Source: Aedoeadaptatus urinae
GTDB taxonomy: Bacteria > Bacillota > Clostridia > Tissierellales > Peptoniphilaceae
Length of the DNA stretch: 64,000 bases
Reading direction: 5' to 3'
Assembly (NCBI RefSeq): GCF_900155585.1
Contig: NZ_LT707416.1
Coordinates: forward strand, 1-64,000
Position numbers and translations under genes: made by a program. This document shows positions 1,788 through 16,074 of this stretch, piece by piece (position 1 is the stretch's first letter; each line of letters starts with the position of its first letter). A model generated the notes under the pieces. That model searched no databases. It worked only from the letters and a program-made list of their open reading frames with translations, and was not told where the DNA came from.

Positions 1788-4700
1788 CTACTTAATGAGG
1801 CATTTGTAGGGGTTGGTGACGTAGGTCTTGACGCCTTGGTCCTGTCCTTCTTGGCAGGTTCCCGAAATAACCAGGACGTCGCCGGATTGCAACTTATAGC
1901 CGTTACCGAAGGATGCTTTCACAAAGGTTCCCTTCGTCGGTACTTTCACTGTAACATCAGCACCTCTATCGGAACCGTCGGCGCCCAGGACCTTAATGGT
2001 CACGTCAGAGTTATCTCTATCGGCGGTCACCTTCATAAATTTTCTGCCTGCCCGTTGGCCTTTAATTTTAACCAATAATTGGTAGGTCTTTTGGTAGTCG
2101 ACCGTCTTTACCGTCTCGTTGCCGAATTCGTCTACTGCGGTAATGGTAATGGTAGGATCTTTTCCTTCATTCACCGCTTGTCTTAAGATGGTGTTCAACA
2201 GATCGGCTTTGATCGTTGTTTCACCTTTGGTAACTTCGTAGTCAAATTCGTTCGTTTCCGTCATGCCTTGGTAGGCTACCTTCACGTGAACTTGGCGGCC
2301 TTCGGGGATTTCCGAAAGAACGGCGGTTAAGTCGATAAAGCGTCTGAATTTTTCATCTGTGGCTTTTGCAGGGTTAATTTCCGGGCCGGCGGCGTCGATC
2401 TTGACGTAGTTTCTGCCCGCTACGTCGGTTCCGCCAATGGCATTATCGCCATCTTTATTGGATGCGGAAGGAAGCATATCCGGTTGCTTGGACACGATGC
2501 GAATGATGTCGTCATTGGTAACACCGTCCAGAGGAATGGTCTTGGTTTGTCCCAAGGTGTCGGTACTTTCCATGGTGGTCTTACCGACGTCAACCCACTT
2601 GTTGTTGGCCTTATCCCACTTTTGTGCCACGTATTCCGTGCCGGGGGTGGGCTTGTTTAAGGTGGGGTTGGGAATGTCGAATTCCACGACGGGTTTGCCG
2701 TCTTGGGCATTGGGCACTTGTTTCATTCGATCCACCGGAGCGGAGGTGCCCTTTTCGTTAATGGTTACACGGCCTTCCGGACCTTCGATGTCTTTGCCGG
2801 CTTTTTCAACCACGTACTTGGCGACAATGTCTTGGCCTGCCTTTCCTGTCAGATTCAGGGTGCTGATAATTAACTTACCTGCATCGTCTCCGATACCTTC
2901 TTTGGCTGTAAGGTCGCCACCGTCATAGCTGCCGTCGGATTGTTTTGCAAGTACGACTTCCGTACCGTCGGCGACGGTGAGCTTAATGGCTTTGATTCCG
3001 GCGTTCTTTTCCGCTTCGCCCCAAGTGAGCTTGGCTTTAGTGTCGGTGTCATAGACATTGCTAAAGGCGGGCTTCGGAATATCCAGCGGCGTGGATGTGT
3101 TCCAAATGGTGTAGCCGGTCACTTCGTCCGTTCCATGACGATCGACGGTTGCAGACTTTCTGGATGTTGCGGAAGTATAGGCGTCAACATCGATGCTGTA
3201 GGCTTGGTTCTTCGCCAAGGGGTCGCCGTAAGGATTGCCTGCGTTTTCGTGTAAGTTCTTGGGCGCATTGGGATCCACCGTGGCGGCGGAGCCTTGCAAA
3301 CGAAGGTAGGTCTTTAAGCCTAAATCGCCCCAGTTGGGTACTTTGAAGTTCTTGTAGGCATCTTCCATACCTGCGGGAACGACTGCCGATACATAGGACA
3401 TCCGTTGGCCTAATTCGTCAAAGCCGGGCAGCTTCCACGTTAAGGTTTGATCCGTGCCGTCCCAATCTTTTAAGCCTGCATCGCCTAAGGGATAGTAGTT
3501 GGCGTTTTGGTGGACGGTCGGTGTACCGTAGTTCGTGACCGCTGTCCGTCTTAAAAGACCGATCTTTGCGGCTTTTTTCTTAGCAACATCAACGTTGTCC
3601 ACGTACTTGCCATACGTACCTTGGGTCAGATCAATGTTCTTATAAGAGGCTACCACATTGATGTCGAAGAAGGGCCGGTAATTGGCGTAGAGGTGAATGT
3701 CCTTACCTTCTTCAATGGCTTTTTTGATTTCCGTGTAGCTCTTGTCAACATCTTGAGGACTTACGGCTACGGAATAGCCATTTGGTATATAATATGTGTT
3801 TTGAAGTTTGTTCAGGTCTTTCAACCATTCGGTTTTTTGCGGAATTCGCTTGGTTCCATTGGCCACAAGGCCTTGGGTAATTTCCCCGATCCGTTCATTG
3901 TTGTTCCCTGCAGCAAATTCAGAAGTAGCATCGTTCGTGTATCTCTTTGTAGTCCAACCTATGAAAGAGTTTTCCGGAATATTAAAGGTCTTGGCCTTGG
4001 TGTCGGTTACTTTATCTATTTCTGCTTGTTCGCCGGTCACGGGCACCTTGGGCAATTGTTTAATAATCAGGTTCCCCTTCATCTTAGACAAGGTGGCGCT
4101 GGAAACGGCGTCCAGAATCTTGTCGGTCTTGTCAATATCGGAAATAACAAGAGGTACCGTTATTGTTGTTTCAGCCTTGGGGTCGGCGGTGTTGTTGGAG
4201 TGAAGGATCAAGTTGATGCCTTCGCCGTAAACGGCATAGACCGTGCGGTTTTTGTCGATGGGCGAGTTGGCGTCAAAGATATAAGCTTCATTTTCGGCAT
4301 TGGCCCAGTCGCCGGTTTCCTTAACAATTTTGTTGACGTCTTTCAGAGCGTTGAATTGTTCGGCTATGCTTTCATCCGCTTTGTCTACTAACTTCACGGT
4401 GGTCCAACCTAAAAGCTTCTTGCCTTGGGGGACGTTGATGTCGTACTTGTCGGGCATTTGTCTTAGCTTGAGCGCTTCTTTTTCAGCCTTGGCAATGGCG
4501 GCATCTTGGTTGTTGATGTCGTAAACTTTGCCGTCGTGATTTAACACGTTTTGGAAAGTTCTCTCGACTTCTTTTCCATCTATTGTTTCTTTTACTTTTA
4601 CTGTTTTTGCATTTTCATTGACTTTGACATTGTCGCCTTCAAAGCCCGATGCTTTATAGTTGGCATTGGCTTGACCTGTTTCAATGTCGACAGCATATTC

Positions 4701-6953
4701 TTTACTTAATGGAGCAATTTTTCCAATAACATCTTTGTTGTCTTTTGATTTTACTCCATTAAGGTCGAAGTTGACTTTTGCCTGTACTTGTTCAACAACT
4801 GCCGGTTTTGATTCTTCTGCAAGAATATCGACATTTGTGTTTGTGAAAAGTAGAGGCATGTCTCTCTTCAGTTCAGGCATTGTAAATGTTCTCGGCGTTG
4901 TGCCGTCTGCTTGATTACCGGGCTTCGTCGTATCGAATTCATAACCTTTTGACTTAACATTGTTTACCACAACGTCTATTCTTGAGTCATCTTTGTTTGA
5001 AGTGTTACCCGGCTTTGCAATAATTGTTTGTACTTTTTGATCAGCCTTAGATTTTCTAATATTTACTTCAGCATTTTCGTAGGCTGTACGACCGGTGATG
5101 TTTTTATCTCCTAAGAAAATTTCATCAACGTCCGGTTTTTGGAATGTTGTTGTAACAGTTCCTGCTGAGTAAGTTCCTTGCCAGTCAAGAACGATTGGGT
5201 TTTTGTCTACTACATAATTAGCTTTATAAAATGTTGGTTCATTCTTGAAGTGCAGGGTTGCTTCTCCACCATCCGGATAGTTACCATATAAATATAGTTC
5301 TGTGCCGGCTTTTAATGTCATAGCCATGCCATTTTGTACAGTGTATTCATAGGCTAAACCCTTGTCTACGTTTAAGAAGTTTGAGCCTAGGAACATTTCA
5401 GTACCCATACCTCTAATTCCAAGACGCATCTCTCTATTACGTGATTTAGCTGAATTTCCAATCAAGCCAGCACCATAAGCAGTCTTAAAGTCAATCTTGA
5501 TTTTATCGCCTGCATTTAGTGTTACGTCTTTTGTTAGTTTAAAGGTGTACTTATATTGTCCTGAAGCATTATCTGTTATTATTGTGGAGTAGAATGGGAA
5601 GTATTGAAGTCCATCATTTCCACCTAACAATTTATCCACTTTATCTGTATCTACATAGTATCTAACTGTCGTACCTTGACCGTTATTTAAAAGTGATTCA
5701 ACCCCATCCAGCCAAGAATCAAGCGGTTGGTTTGTAGTAAGGTTCGTTTTTATACCTGCTTGTGCTTCAGCATCTCTATTGAAATCACTTGCGGCAACTT
5801 GTATGAAACCAAGGTCTGAACCTGGAAGGAAATTGATGTTCTCCTTTAATACTGCAACAGAACCTGTAGATGTAGGTTCTCCATTTGCATCCAGTCTACC
5901 ACTTGTAGGAAGTCCATTGTTTGATGTCGAGAATATATGGGCGATCGTTCCCGAAGCATCTTTCGCCTTTAGCACCTCGAAGAATCTCTTGTCTACCGTT
6001 TGTCTATAGCCAAGCTTTCTTCCGTAAAGTTCATTGTTTGTAATGGCCACCTTGTTATAACGATGTCTTACTTCGATATAGCCCTTTTCCTTGTTATATA
6101 ATACAGAAGATCCTGCAGCTCTAAAAGCTCTATCTGGAGTTACTGACGCACGTATTTCTCTTAAAAGATTTTGTTCGTAGTTATGCTTTAAAGGAACTAT
6201 AGATGAGAAAGTATACGTTGAATAGTTACCTTTACCGGAACCTGCATCAGCGTAGCAAGCAACTTGTTTCTTATCTCTAGCCAACATCCTTATTTGAACT
6301 AAAGGTTCCTTTTTAAAGGAGTCTACACTTTGTCCTTCTTTTAATACTAGGTTTATTGGAACTTCATTAAGGGCAGCTGTAGTGCCTGTATTTCTATTAT
6401 CTGCTATGTTTACTTCTTTTACGTTGACTGAACCGGCATCAGTAATTGTTGTATCACCAAAAGGTGTTATTGCTTTGTAAGCAAGGTCGTCGTGGTACCA
6501 TCCAACATTTGATCCGGCTGACACACCCTTATAGATGCCGGTTTCTGTGTCGTTCCAGTCTACCATATCGTCAAAGCTATCTTCTAACTTCATTTGCATG
6601 ACATGCCAAACACCTGTACCAACCTTGTCAAACTTTCTCATCGTAAGTCTGATTACAGTCCGTCCGTCAGGTCTTATGAAGTAGCCTCCGTAACCTATCA
6701 TTGGGTTTTTCATTGGTTCAGCTAGTGTAGATACTTCACTTAAGTATTGTTTTTCAGCTAGTGGCCAAAAGTTTTTACCCTTTAGGTTTTCTTCTTTCAA
6801 GGTCCAATCGGTGGTTTGGGTGGTTTCCTTCCCCGTCGTCGGATCTTGCGCCTTGAAGGTCTCAGCAAAGGCATTTATGGGCAGGGTCCCGGCGACCATA
6901 ATGGCAGCCAAGAGCCCGGCAGTGATTTGCTTTTGCATCTGCTTAACGTTCAT
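1788..6953 (-). CDS. Very large secreted surface protein with InlB-B-like repeats
   Basis: About 1721 residues. I chose the ATG at 6953 over one 13 codons upstream because a perfect AAAGGAGG lies 6-7 nt before it and the signal peptide (MNVKQMQKQ, a hydrophobic core, then NAFAET) begins there. Residues ~55-800 form a large unrecognised N-terminal region. The middle carries repeat units with GWTT and a closing TVYAVY or HLYANY, as in Listeria/Bacteroides InlB B-repeats. The C-terminal third has Ig-like or fibronectin-like beta modules. It ends in TNPYKCLIK with no LPXTG motif, membrane tail or SLH domain, so its attachment is unclear. Base composition shifts within the gene: ~6790-4560 is AT-rich, while the signal-peptide end and the 3' half are GC-richer. 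The function is probably adhesion or matrix binding, by inference. Confidence 0.85.
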   Translation of the reverse strand: MNVKQMQKQITAGLLAAIMVAGTLPINAFAETFKAQDPTTGKETTQTTDWTLKEENLKGKNFWPLAEKQYLSEVSTLAEPMKNPMIGYGGYFIRPDGRTVIRLTMRKFDKVGTGVWHVMQMKLEDSFDDMVDWNDTETGIYKGVSAGSNVGWYHDDLAYKAITPFGDTTITDAGSVNVKEVNIADNRNTGTTAALNEVPINLVLKEGQSVDSFKKEPLVQIRMLARDKKQVACYADAGSGKGNYSTYTFSSIVPLKHNYEQNLLREIRASVTPDRAFRAAGSSVLYNKEKGYIEVRHRYNKVAITNNELYGRKLGYRQTVDKRFFEVLKAKDASGTIAHIFSTSNNGLPTSGRLDANGEPTSTGSVAVLKENINFLPGSDLGFIQVAASDFNRDAEAQAGIKTNLTTNQPLDSWLDGVESLLNNGQGTTVRYYVDTDKVDKLLGGNDGLQYFPFYSTIITDNASGQYKYTFKLTKDVTLNAGDKIKIDFKTAYGAGLIGNSAKSRNREMRLGIRGMGTEMFLGSNFLNVDKGLAYEYTVQNGMAMTLKAGTELYLYGNYPDGGEATLHFKNEPTFYKANYVVDKNPIVLDWQGTYSAGTVTTTFQKPDVDEIFLGDKNITGRTAYENAEVNIRKSKADQKVQTIIAKPGNTSNKDDSRIDVVVNNVKSKGYEFDTTKPGNQADGTTPRTFTMPELKRDMPLLFTNTNVDILAEESKPAVVEQVQAKVNFDLNGVKSKDNKDVIGKIAPLSKEYAVDIETGQANANYKASGFEGDNVKVNENAKTVKVKETIDGKEVERTFQNVLNHDGKVYDINNQDAAIAKAEKEALKLRQMPDKYDINVPQGKKLLGWTTVKLVDKADESIAEQFNALKDVNKIVKETGDWANAENEAYIFDANSPIDKNRTVYAVYGEGINLILHSNNTADPKAETTITVPLVISDIDKTDKILDAVSSATLSKMKGNLIIKQLPKVPVTGEQAEIDKVTDTKAKTFNIPENSFIGWTTKRYTNDATSEFAAGNNNERIGEITQGLVANGTKRIPQKTEWLKDLNKLQNTYYIPNGYSVAVSPQDVDKSYTEIKKAIEEGKDIHLYANYRPFFDINVVASYKNIDLTQGTYGKYVDNVDVAKKKAAKIGLLRRTAVTNYGTPTVHQNANYYPLGDAGLKDWDGTDQTLTWKLPGFDELGQRMSYVSAVVPAGMEDAYKNFKVPNWGDLGLKTYLRLQGSAATVDPNAPKNLHENAGNPYGDPLAKNQAYSIDVDAYTSATSRKSATVDRHGTDEVTGYTIWNTSTPLDIPKPAFSNVYDTDTKAKLTWGEAEKNAGIKAIKLTVADGTEVVLAKQSDGSYDGGDLTAKEGIGDDAGKLIISTLNLTGKAGQDIVAKYVVEKAGKDIEGPEGRVTINEKGTSAPVDRMKQVPNAQDGKPVVEFDIPNPTLNKPTPGTEYVAQKWDKANNKWVDVGKTTMESTDTLGQTKTIPLDGVTNDDIIRIVSKQPDMLPSASNKDGDNAIGGTDVAGRNYVKIDAAGPEINPAKATDEKFRRFIDLTAVLSEIPEGRQVHVKVAYQGMTETNEFDYEVTKGETTIKADLLNTILRQAVNEGKDPTITITAVDEFGNETVKTVDYQKTYQLLVKIKGQRAGRKFMKVTADRDNSDVTIKVLGADGSDRGADVTVKVPTKGTFVKASFGNGYKLQSGDVLVISGTCQEGQDQGVKTYVTNPYKCLIK

Positions 6954-7075
6954 AGCTTCCTCCTTTAATACATTCTTAGTGACGCCGTACATCTTTTCGT
7001 TGCCAAACGCACTTCCTTTCTTCGTTCCTTACTTAATCGCTTCCTTGCTACATCATCACAGATAGATACATTTTT

Positions 7076-7289: not shown

Positions 7290-7778
7290 TTAAATGGATA
7301 CGACGTGAACGGGGTTGCCGGCCTCTTCGATAAGTTTAATTAAATCCTCGGCTTTGAGCCACACGGTGGCGGTGTTGTCGTTGGGGTGGATGCCGATGAT
7401 GCCGCCGTTTTTGGTAAATTGTCTGTCCAAATAGAAGTGCACGGCGTGTTCGGCGTCGTTTAAGAGACCGAAGGGGCTCACGGCGCCGGTTTCCAGGTCG
7501 AGTTTTTCTTTCAGGTCCTGTTCTTTTCCGAAGGAGAGGCGGCGGGTGTTGTGTTTTTCTTTAAATTGCTTCAGATCCACGCGCTTGTCGCCGAAGACGG
7601 TGATGAGGTAGTAGTTTTTCTTTTTGTCGTCGCGAACGAAGAGGTTTTTGGCATCGCGGCCCGGGTAGAGGAGGTCCACTTTGCCCAGCTCTTCCATGTT
7701 CATGACGGCTTCGTGTTCGGTGACTTCGTAGGGGATGTTTTTTTCGTCTAAAAAGTTATAAATGTCTTGTTTGTTCAT
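7290..7778 (-). CDS. proX: Prolyl-tRNA editing protein, ProX/YbaK superfamily (Ala-tRNAPro deacylase type)
   Basis: 162 residues, one YbaK/ProRS editing domain covering the whole chain. Free-standing members hydrolyse mischarged Ala-tRNAPro in trans. The family stretch GAVSPFGLLND and the segment YLITVFGDKRVDLKQ are present, as is the IGIHPNDNTATVWLKAEDL end typical of ProXp-ala/PrdX proteins. The start at 7778 has AAAGGAGG just upstream; an in-frame ATG 11 codons earlier lies inside the promoter-like TGGGTATA motif and is unlikely. It is monocistronic and divergent from the alcohol dehydrogenase. A ProRS-like protein that keeps a similar editing domain but lacks catalytic motifs lies 7 kb away. 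Confidence 0.9.
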   Translation of the reverse strand: MNKQDIYNFLDEKNIPYEVTEHEAVMNMEELGKVDLLYPGRDAKNLFVRDDKKKNYYLITVFGDKRVDLKQFKEKHNTRRLSFGKEQDLKEKLDLETGAVSPFGLLNDAEHAVHFYLDRQFTKNGGIIGIHPNDNTATVWLKAEDLIKLIEEAGNPVHVVSI

Positions 7779-7802
7779 GATGTCCTCCTTTGTTTTTTGA
7801 TT

Positions 7803-7869
7803 TATACCCATTCGGCGGCTCCCGTCACGGGTTTATTTTCCGCGTTCGACCGTTCCGCCTTTGGGTATA
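7803..7869. promoter_or_regulatory. Divergent promoter region with inverted TATACCCA / TGGGTATA
   Basis: TATACCCA (7803-7810) and TGGGTATA (7862-7869) form a widely spaced inverted pair. Each runs into an A/T-rich -10-like hexamer: TATAAA toward the ProX gene, and TATAAT (7866-7871) toward the dehydrogenase. The same arrangement recurs between other divergent genes in this window. Whether these are -10 elements with an upstream G-triplet or an operator is not settled. Confidence 0.5.
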
Positions 7870-14406: not shown

Positions 14407-16074
14407 CTATTCGTTTATTAGTTCCACGATGCGGCGAAGGGCATCTTCCGCCGGAAGCTTTTCCATGTCGCCGCCGCGGCGTTTAAATTCCACGACGCCT
14501 TCCGCGGCTTCCTTGCCTACGGTGAGCTGCAGCGGAATGCCTAAAAGGTCGCGGTCTTTAAATTTGACGCCGGCACGCTCGTTGCGGTCGTCGCAGAGGA
14601 CGCCGATGCCTTCATCACGAAGGGCGTTGTAAAGCTTATCGGCCAGGGCCACCTGCTCTTCTTTTTTCACATTGACCACGGTAAGGGCCACGTCGAAGGG
14701 GCCGATGTGAAGGGGGAAGGCCGGTCCGTCGTCGTCCCGATGGTTTTCCAAGAGGGCCGCCAGGAGGGCGCCGGTGCGCCAGGTGGCTCCGCCTATAATA
14801 TAGGGGGCTTCCTTGCCTTCGTCGTTTAAGAAGCGCACGTTCATGGCTTCGGAAAAGGCCGTGGAGGGCTTTCTGATCCGCGCCACTTCAAAGGCCGTGG
14901 TAAATTCGTAGGCATCGCCCGAGGGGGACAGATCCCCTTCGCGCACGTCCAAGAGGTCTTCGGCGATTTCGCCTTCGAAATCCCGGCCGTAGTTGACGTT
15001 TTTTTTATGGTAGTCTTCCTTGTTGGCGCCCACCACCATATTGTCGATAAAGGTGACGGAGCGGTCCACAATGATCCGCGCCTTATCCCCGAGACCCACG
15101 GGCCCGGTAAAACCGGGGAAGGTACCCATTTCCAAAATGGTCTCTTCGTCGAGCATGTCGATTTGATCGGCGTCGACGCCTAAGTATTTTTCGAGCTTCT
15201 TTTGATTCAGATCCCGATCGCCGGGCACGAAGACGAAGACGGGCTCGCCATCGATACGCAGATCCACCGCTTTCGTACAGCGGGCGGGTTCTACGCCGAT
15301 CATGTCGCTTAAATCTTTAATGGTGCGGGCATCGGGGGTGTGAATGTCCTCCGCCTCTTTCGGCTCCTGTCCTTCGGGAACCGGGTAGCGAATGGGAGCT
15401 TCGTCCATTAAAAAGGCCGCAGCTCCGTCCAGGGCCACGCTGTCTTTATAATTATCCGCCGTAGCGTAATAGATGATGTAATCGTCTTGATCCACGACGC
15501 AAAAATCGATGCCCAGGTCGTTCAAAAGCTTTTCCGCCCGGCTCTTCGCTTCGTCAAAAAAGGCCTGTGCCGCCTCTTCGTCGCCGTCGAAGCGCATGCC
15601 GTCCACAACGCGCATGCCGCGCCCGTCGGCGAGGCCCAATCCGGGCTTTTGCACGTCGCTGTAGCGATTGGCTTTTTCGTATAAAAAGAGGGGAAGCTGC
15701 TTGTAGCTCTTCAGCTCTCCGTCGACGAAGGACAGGAAGGCTTCCTCGGATTCCGGCGCCAGTACCGCCTGGCGGTTGGTGCGATCCGCCACCTTATACA
15801 TGGCGCTGCCGTAGCTGTCCCAGCGACCGCTTCGCTCCCACAGGGTGCGGGGTTGAAGGGCGCACAAAGCCACGGGGAGCCCGCCCTCGAAAAATTCATC
15901 CTCTAAACGCTTTTCGATGGCTTCCGACAAAGCCAGGCCATAGGGCAATAGGGAATAGAGCCCGACGCCTACTTCCCGAGCCATGCCGGAGCGAAGCATC
16001 CACTTGTGGGCTTCGGTGCGGGCATCTGCCGGGGCTTCCCGCAGGGTAGGTAAGTAATACTGTGAAAGTTTCAT
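14407..16074 (-). CDS. Prolyl-tRNA synthetase-like protein, catalytic motifs degenerate, editing domain retained
   Basis: 555 residues, collinear with bacterial ProRS (SQYYLPTLREAPADA at the start, ESGRW-like ERSGRWDSYG, SYKQLPL, and the C-terminal anticodon domain with AGVKFKDRDLLGIPLQLTVGK). The class II active site is not conserved. The usual GPTHEE is APESEE (106-111). Motif 2, normally KFRDE-RPR-G, is RYSDVQKPGLG (137-147), losing the ATP-binding Arg. Motif 3, normally GCYGIGVSR, is GGATWRTGALL (428-438), losing its Arg. In contrast the inserted editing (INS) domain, ~225-380, keeps well-conserved segments (FVFVPGDRDLN, VVGANKEDYH, NYGRDF) and a Lys (K268) where the editing Lys is expected. 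It may act as a trans-editing factor rather than a synthetase. It is second in an operon behind an FMN-binding lipoprotein. A pipeline would call it proS. Confidence 0.85.
   Translation of the reverse strand: MKLSQYYLPTLREAPADARTEAHKWMLRSGMAREVGVGLYSLLPYGLALSEAIEKRLEDEFFEGGLPVALCALQPRTLWERSGRWDSYGSAMYKVADRTNRQAVLAPESEEAFLSFVDGELKSYKQLPLFLYEKANRYSDVQKPGLGLADGRGMRVVDGMRFDGDEEAAQAFFDEAKSRAEKLLNDLGIDFCVVDQDDYIIYYATADNYKDSVALDGAAAFLMDEAPIRYPVPEGQEPKEAEDIHTPDARTIKDLSDMIGVEPARCTKAVDLRIDGEPVFVFVPGDRDLNQKKLEKYLGVDADQIDMLDEETILEMGTFPGFTGPVGLGDKARIIVDRSVTFIDNMVVGANKEDYHKKNVNYGRDFEGEIAEDLLDVREGDLSPSGDAYEFTTAFEVARIRKPSTAFSEAMNVRFLNDEGKEAPYIIGGATWRTGALLAALLENHRDDDGPAFPLHIGPFDVALTVVNVKKEEQVALADKLYNALRDEGIGVLCDDRNERAGVKFKDRDLLGIPLQLTVGKEAAEGVVEFKRRGGDMEKLPAEDALRRIVELINE

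Follow-up and report, generated by a model that had tools for sequence, protein, structure and literature searches.

The genome of Aedoeadaptatus urinae encodes a full-length bacterial-type (family II) prolyl-tRNA synthetase (ProRS)-like protein which has lost most of the key residues of its aminoacylation core, but retains the INS editing domain and the anticodon-binding domain (ABD). We consider it likely that this protein is an editing-only ProRS that clears Ala-tRNA(Pro) in trans, although both the activity and the substrate are inferred, the latter from the INS family. The gene lies in the window, by which we mean the whole stretch of DNA that was analysed (64,000 nucleotides, positions 1 to 64,000 of contig NZ_LT707416.1). 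The relevant features are as follows, residues being those of the window protein.

14407..16074 (-): full-length family II ProRS-like gene with degenerate aminoacylation core; 555 aa, ATG start
15742..15759 (-): TXE-loop position, residues 106-111; APESEE in place of GPT(H/A)EE
15616..15663 (-): motif 2 position, residues 138-153; R139S, E141V, R143K, R150D
14923..15357 (-): INS editing domain, residues 240-384; PF04073 at 246-361
14767..14793 (-): motif 3 position, residues 428-436; GGATWRTGA, catalytic Arg436 replaced by Ala
14410..14718 (-): ABD, residues 453-555; PF03129 at 462-551
7290..7811 (-): ProXp-ala-like single-domain protein, possible redundant editor; 5vxb ProXp-ala match 5.1e-21

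Residue losses in the core and retention of INS and ABD

The window protein is homologous over its full length to family II ProRS, with the domain order core, INS, core and ABD. It matches the solved bacterial ProRS 2j3l (1.1e-99, query residues 1-544) and scores 328.7 bits against TIGR00409, over the cut-off of 306.7; against the PRK09194 equivalog (NF006625) it reaches 426.7 bits, under the stricter cut-off of 558, and does not meet that criterion. The Pfam families tRNA_edit (246-361) and HGTP_anticodon (462-551) are recognised, with a weaker match to the class II core. An AlphaFold2 model is confident throughout (pLDDT 92.9, pTM 0.88) and superposes on 2j3l with Z 47.0 and rmsd 3.1 over 553 aligned residues. 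This prediction, made from an alignment that contains canonical ProRS, indicates that the scaffold can be kept and says nothing on function.

We counted eight key positions, T108, E110, R139, E141, R143, R150, R152 and R436 (window numbering, to which one is added around motif 2 to give that of Enterococcus faecalis ProRS), which we take to have the catalytic roles of the TXE loop, motif 2 and motif 3. The reference set comprised 46 canonical Tissierellales ProRS (L021-L042, L096, L100-L115, L117, L119, L120 and L050-L053, where L denotes a locus and G, below, a genome). It omits L099 (split), L118, L124, L146, the non-Tissierellales L054-L095, fragments and 430-aa forms; L116 was left out on account of 9% contamination in its genome and a partial family I match under the cut-off. 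All eight residues are present in 45 of the 46 canonical proteins, the remaining one being without R152. The window protein has only two, E110 in the TXE loop and R152, and the proteins of the genus keep two or three. T108, E141, R143, R150 and R436 are replaced in all eight genus genomes, with V or I at 141, D at 150 and A or S at 436, and S109, E110 and E111 are invariant across the genus at the old TXE loop. No conserved Arg that might substitute for that of motif 3 was seen in the sequences of the eight genomes (position 433 is R in six, and H and D in the other two); model side chains were not compared.

Relative to the columns invariant among the 46 canonical proteins, the window protein keeps 57/108 in the core, 22/22 in INS and 21/24 in the ABD. 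Two divergent canonical controls keep 74/108 and 72/108 in the core, with 16/22 and 17/22 in INS. The degeneracy of the window gene is real and not the result of a sequencing slip, because the degenerate motifs recur in 8/8 genus genomes and dN/dS is 0.086-0.211. Aminoacylation has probably been lost with these residues, but this is an inference made without proline-activation data.

The INS active-site residues K268, H356, G321, G324, P325, G349 and N351 are found in the window protein and in all 19 degenerate proteins considered below. K268 and H356 correspond to E. faecalis K279 and H366 (numbers hand-counted from the alignment), and in E. coli the K279A substitution renders ProRS defective in editing (PMC3973320). 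On average 99% of INS invariants are kept in the genus and 88% in the 11 other degenerate proteins. Within the ABD, D495 and R497 are kept in 19/19 degenerate proteins and D496, G502, K504 and G512 in 18/19, while four proteins of family f3 retain only 12-13 of the 24 invariants. Das et al. reported that INS of E. coli cannot recognise tRNA(Pro) by itself, requires the ABD to read G35/G36 and tolerates changes in the acceptor stem (PMC3973320), and complete ProRS is cited as capable of trans editing (PMC4787780). Since INS takes its specificity from the ABD, an editor derived from ProRS is predicted to keep the ABD and its spacing, which matches what we observe.

An earlier note, prepared from the sequence alone, had described the full-length collinearity with bacterial ProRS, the motifs APESEE, YSDVQKPG and GGATWRTGA and the INS readings K268, FVFVPGDRDLN, VVGANKEDYH and NYGRDF. 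All of these held, the motifs lying at residues 106-111, 138-145 and 428-436 and the 2j3l match extending over nearly the whole length. Its statement that all class II catalytic motifs are lost was too strong, given that two of the eight key positions remain. The substitutions, whose fixation in a clade it had proposed as a check, are fixed in all eight genus genomes; its proposed refutation, that arginines are supplied from shifted positions, has been partly tested, at the level of sequence only.

A second ProRS and the descent of the window gene

The window genome (4 contigs, 99.25% complete) also encodes a family I (archaeal/eukaryote-type) ProRS at G000:C2:178186-179589, which scores 618.7-619.1 bits with TIGR00408 (cut-off 437) and has intact TXE (RPTSE) and motif 3 (SWGISTR) sequences, so that the separate archaeal-type synthetase predicted by the earlier note is indeed present. 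Its best solved relative is 1h4q, taken to be the Thermus thermophilus ProRS from the name of the sister entry 1h4s. No PF04073 match was obtained in this protein; absence of INS was tested in this way in the window genome only and is inferred elsewhere from family match and length. Motif 2 of family I was read by eye, likewise in the window genome alone, a too-narrow pattern having matched 1/28 loci.

Four proteins of the window genome belong to PF04073, namely the window protein, the ProX encoded at 7290 and two further single-domain proteins. The single-domain proteins resemble ProXp-ala, the putative trans-editor 2cx5 (ProXp-x) and YbaK, the YbaK-like protein being over the TIGR00011 cut-off. 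An intact ProXp-ala gene occurs in 6/8 genus genomes; none was found in G007 and only a remnant in G006 (L236, G006 C12:3500-7500). The degenerate ProRS is thus more constant in the genus than ProXp-ala (8/8 versus 6/8), and the ProX that the earlier note had proposed as a partner, while matching ProXp-ala structures, is not an obligatory one. Intact ProXp-ala should do the same job, so that editing looks redundant in six of the eight species, and this redundancy is unexplained.

In three Aedoeadaptatus genomes a typA/BipA-like GTPase gene (named by eye) directly precedes the ProXp-x-like gene (L001:19-1896, on C3 of the window genome; L233 in G003; L235 in G007). The frame lengths had suggested a TypA-ProXp-x fusion, which was rejected as these are two adjacent genes; the pair could conceivably form a translation-quality operon. 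Elsewhere in the window, 1788-6992 (-) is a 1734-aa open reading frame, probably for a surface protein, with a signal-like N-terminus by eye.

The possibility of a tRNA identity switch, in which an archaeal-type acceptor end would leave INS as the sole usable editor, was not supported. A tRNA(Pro) pattern was matched in 27/29 genomes. The 30 loci scanned gave tRNA(Pro) at 27, with 35 genes, all having C1, G72 and A73; none was obtained at L205, L208 and L212, and within the genus G004 and G007 are therefore uncovered. Although the synthetase is of archaeal type, every genus tRNA(Pro) that was read has retained the bacterial C1, G72 and A73. The UGG and CGG genes lie about 100 bases apart in the window genome (L213, C4:738306-738430) and in five other genus genomes.

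All eight Aedoeadaptatus genomes examined carry both the degenerate family II and the family I ProRS. The genus belongs to the Peptoniphilaceae, Tissierellales, in the NCBI taxonomy, and the relatives comprise A. pacaensis (94% identical to the window protein), A. coli, A. coxii, A. ivorii, two records named Peptoniphilus and one MAG, the seven proteins being 58-94% identical to the window protein; an open frame of about 555 aa is kept in all eight. In each of the three relatives examined (G013, G008 and G015) a canonical proS lies between neighbours shared with the window gene (neighbour names other than proS were assigned by eye). The agreement is complete in G013, which has the window's series gltX, PHP, SLH protein, proS, FMN-binding lipoprotein, LacI regulator and diacylglycerol-kinase-like gene. 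In G008 it extends from gltX as far as the lipoprotein, LacI being found 8 kb off at the edge of the contig piece. In G015 it runs from the SLH protein as far as the kinase-like gene, and neither gltX nor PHP was found within the 20 kb examined. Because a canonical proS occupies this locus in three relatives, the window gene is very probably the old housekeeping proS decayed in place, rather than an import or a spare copy. Horizontal arrival of the degenerate gene is disfavoured by gene order; the tree agrees with only moderate support, in that the genus is monophyletic (support 100) and groups with L021, L022 and L024 with support of 75.

Branch lengths were refitted for each domain on the IQ-TREE topology and divided by the mean length of a canonical terminal branch. 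These are lengths and not rates, and it is the contrast between domains that counts. On the genus stem the core reaches 10.65, against 1.52 in INS and 1.02 in the ABD. The core is also the longest of the three domains in 11/11 other degenerate terminal branches, for which core/INS/ABD values are 10.2/2.3/2.1 (L121), 4.4/0.9/1.0 (L097), 18.1/2.2/3.2 (L098), 1.9/1.3/1.5 (L125), 6.5/1.5/3.6 (L126), 8.7/3.3/7.4 (L127), 3.5/0.5/0.8 (L140), 7.6/2.0/1.2 (L138), 9.8/2.8/2.1 (L137), 10.6/2.9/5.2 (L141) and 4.3/2.4/2.0 (L142); INS and ABD are lengthened too in some of these lineages, for example L127 and L141. Whole-gene dN/dS for five pairs of genus species is 0.095, 0.211, 0.172, 0.185 and 0.086. In the core, values of 0.086-0.239 within the genus show that constraint persists; as this exceeds the needs of a bare linker, it is possible that the core binds something.

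Degenerate ProRS in other lineages

Among 249 Tissierellales genomes, family I is over its cut-off in 49 and family II over 558 bits in 196. Sequences were read for low-scoring or co-occurring cases only and the other genomes were judged by best score; a degenerate copy accompanied by a canonical one, or a copy with few changes, would thus have escaped notice. Degenerate INS-bearing ProRS was found in 19 genomes, the eight of the genus and 11 further. Fifteen belong to the order (the genus, G118, G057, G040, G062, G063, G065 and G066) and four to a sample of the class (n=393; G360, G317, G592 and G298). An INS-less ProRS accompanies the degenerate protein in 19/19, of family I in 18 and of family II in one. 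Family I is over cut-off in 14 of the 15 order genomes and three of the four from the class sample; G066 has a family I C-terminal end (profile 422-475) at a contig end, just before the degenerate gene, and G298, without family I over cut-off, has a 430-aa family II ProRS that lacks INS and whose motifs are canonical. Within the order, family I is over cut-off in 14/15 degenerate genomes as against 5/196 with family II over cut-off (Fisher p 7e-17, the genomes not being independent). The degenerate gene is directly 3' of family I on the same strand in G062, G063 and G065, and the two are divergent in G040 and G057, about 0.5 and 1.9 kb apart respectively.

K268 and H356 are retained in 19/19 degenerate proteins, whereas the key residues left in the various lineages range from 0 to 5 of 8, in differing sets. 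The degenerate proteins fall in five places in the tree: the genus (support 100); L097, beside L118 (support 99); a cluster of L098, four f3 proteins, two f36 proteins and L137 (support 98); L142, with the canonical L124 and L146 (support 100); and L121, of unsure placement (support 72). From this we infer at least four origins, although long branches may have drawn some of the proteins together. L097, with 5/8 key residues present and residues ~67-101 missing, is the least certain of the set to be dead. L118, from a genome that has family I (G210), carries R139I, R150K and E110D together with changes in six other core invariants, and may represent an early stage of the same decay.

Family I does not always coincide with a degenerate family II protein. 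Five genomes (G037, G072, G196, G170 and G268) combine it with a family II protein having 8/8 key residues, and G210 with one having 5/8; family II is over or near the cut-off in these six. In a further 30 genomes of the order family I is present but family II was not found (24 from family f19 plus six others, several incomplete). It follows from both sets that the editing-only outcome is not forced. These f19 genomes (for example L196), in which family I is over cut-off and family II was not found, represent the alternative outcome of the takeover.

Several low-scoring candidates proved not to be degenerate. The f68 genomes G348, G387, G403, G451, G508, G550 and G590 have INS-less 430-aa forms with canonical motifs, the family II protein of G268 is canonical, and G046, G074, G129, G247, G553, G570 and G586 have split or contig-end pieces, canonical in motif where read. 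ProRS of about 430 aa without INS and with canonical catalytic motifs are represented in family f68 by L148-L154, L160-L161 and L163-L165.

Proposed function, alternatives and known systems

In the scheme that we favour, the window gene would have started as the housekeeping proS of the lineage, and an INS-less archaeal-type (family I) ProRS would then have taken over the charging of tRNA(Pro). The displaced enzyme would have lost proline activation and been retained as an editing-only factor, in which the ABD would select tRNA(Pro), INS would hydrolyse in trans the Ala-tRNA(Pro) made by family I ProRS, and the dead core would serve as a scaffold keeping the two in register. The reason for keeping the full length would be the dependence of INS on the ABD for its tRNA specificity. 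The order of these events is inferred, as is the deacylase activity. The trans-editing role put forward in the earlier note is supported through its genomic predictions, deacylation and the loss of proline activation remaining inferences. A bolder reading, which we also think likely, is that editing-only ProRS form an unrecognised, recurrent class of multi-domain trans-editors in the Clostridia with at least four origins, such that proS, once displaced by an INS-less enzyme, has repeatedly decayed to encode an Ala-tRNA(Pro) deacylase specific for tRNA(Pro), in some cases sharing an operon with its successor.

Of the alternatives, the least easily dismissed is that the protein acts as a regulator or scaffold which, through its ABD and core, binds tRNA(Pro) or family I ProRS and so senses or regulates charging, any INS activity being incidental. 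Purifying selection on the core, the invariance of S109, E110 and E111 in the genus and the possibility that ProXp-ala renders editing redundant all speak for it. We nevertheless regard it as unlikely, since INS is the best-kept part (22/22 in the window protein, with its Lys and His in every degenerate protein) and a regulator needs no intact hydrolytic pocket. It is still less probable that the gene is a decaying pseudogene or a transitional relic of gene replacement without present function. The 30 order genomes that have family I but yielded no family II, and the early-stage appearance of L118 in G210, speak for such a fate; the low dN/dS, the frame open in all eight genus genomes and genus-stem lengths for INS and ABD of only 1.5 and 1.0 canonical branches speak against it. 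Equally improbable is that the active site has been rewired, the protein being a still-active altered ProRS or an enzyme that activates another amino acid. In favour, the model retains the fold (553 residues aligned with 2j3l), and E110 and R152 remain; against this, E141, R150 and R436 are replaced throughout the genus, and the retention of different residues in different lineages suggests loss over one new chemistry.

The editing-only ProRS that we propose has its closest analogue in archaeal ThrRS-ed, which is likewise derived from a synthetase and has an editing (hydrolytic) domain and an anticodon-binding domain (PMC11295145). ThrRS-ed is a trans-editing factor that acts beside a separate synthetase. 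The window protein meets the corresponding criteria, namely a degenerate synthetic site, retention of INS and ABD and a separate synthetase without editing domain in the same genome. It scores 14 bits against NF011500 (Ser-tRNA(Thr) hydrolase; cut-off 362), over residues 441-520 only, and is thus an analogue of ThrRS-ed and not a member. ThrRS-ed differs in being archaeal, derived from ThrRS and directed at Ser-tRNA(Thr), whereas the window protein is a bacterial ProRS that retains the whole degenerate core, and, unlike ThrRS-ed, it arose from the ancestral gene in place, with parallels in several lineages. ProXp-ala, YbaK, ProXp-x and ProXp-ST have the homologous INS fold and conserved Lys, and Ala-tRNA(Pro), the presumed substrate of the window protein, is that of ProXp-ala. 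According to a 2024 review, the INS superfamily consists of single-domain proteins apart from INS itself, and recognition by ProXp-ala is through the acceptor stem (PMC11295145); the window protein, multi-domain at 555 aa and with its own ABD, does not meet the single-domain criterion of these trans-editing proteins.

Two further systems are comparable in part. Apo-ThrRS T1 is a full-length synthetase that acts solely in trans editing for a second synthetase (PMC4787780). Its host is Anabaena. There, however, an enzyme that is otherwise active takes on this role through a switch dependent on zinc, in contrast to loss by mutation in the window protein. Streptomyces ProRSx is a second, diverged bacterial-type ProRS beside the housekeeping one (PMC9437257), but it has catalytic activity, with an unusual tRNA as the one it charges, whereas the window protein is without most catalytic residues. 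We found no report of an editing-only ProRS in the open-access PMC literature searched, judged by titles and the beginnings of abstracts. The editing-only idea is already known from archaeal ThrRS-ed, and it is the ProRS version that is unreported in that literature.

As the window protein passes TIGR00409, it could be annotated as an active proline--tRNA ligase, and such annotation would mislead lists of essential genes and drug-target work. If our reading is correct, the protein adds a multi-domain, anticodon-reading trans-editor to INS proteins otherwise described as single-domain (PMC11295145), and provides a natural test of the view that the tRNA specificity of INS comes from the ABD. The early-looking G210, the middle stage in Aedoeadaptatus and the late f3 gene pairs would offer successive stages for comparison, and would illustrate that proofreading can outlive its parent synthetase.
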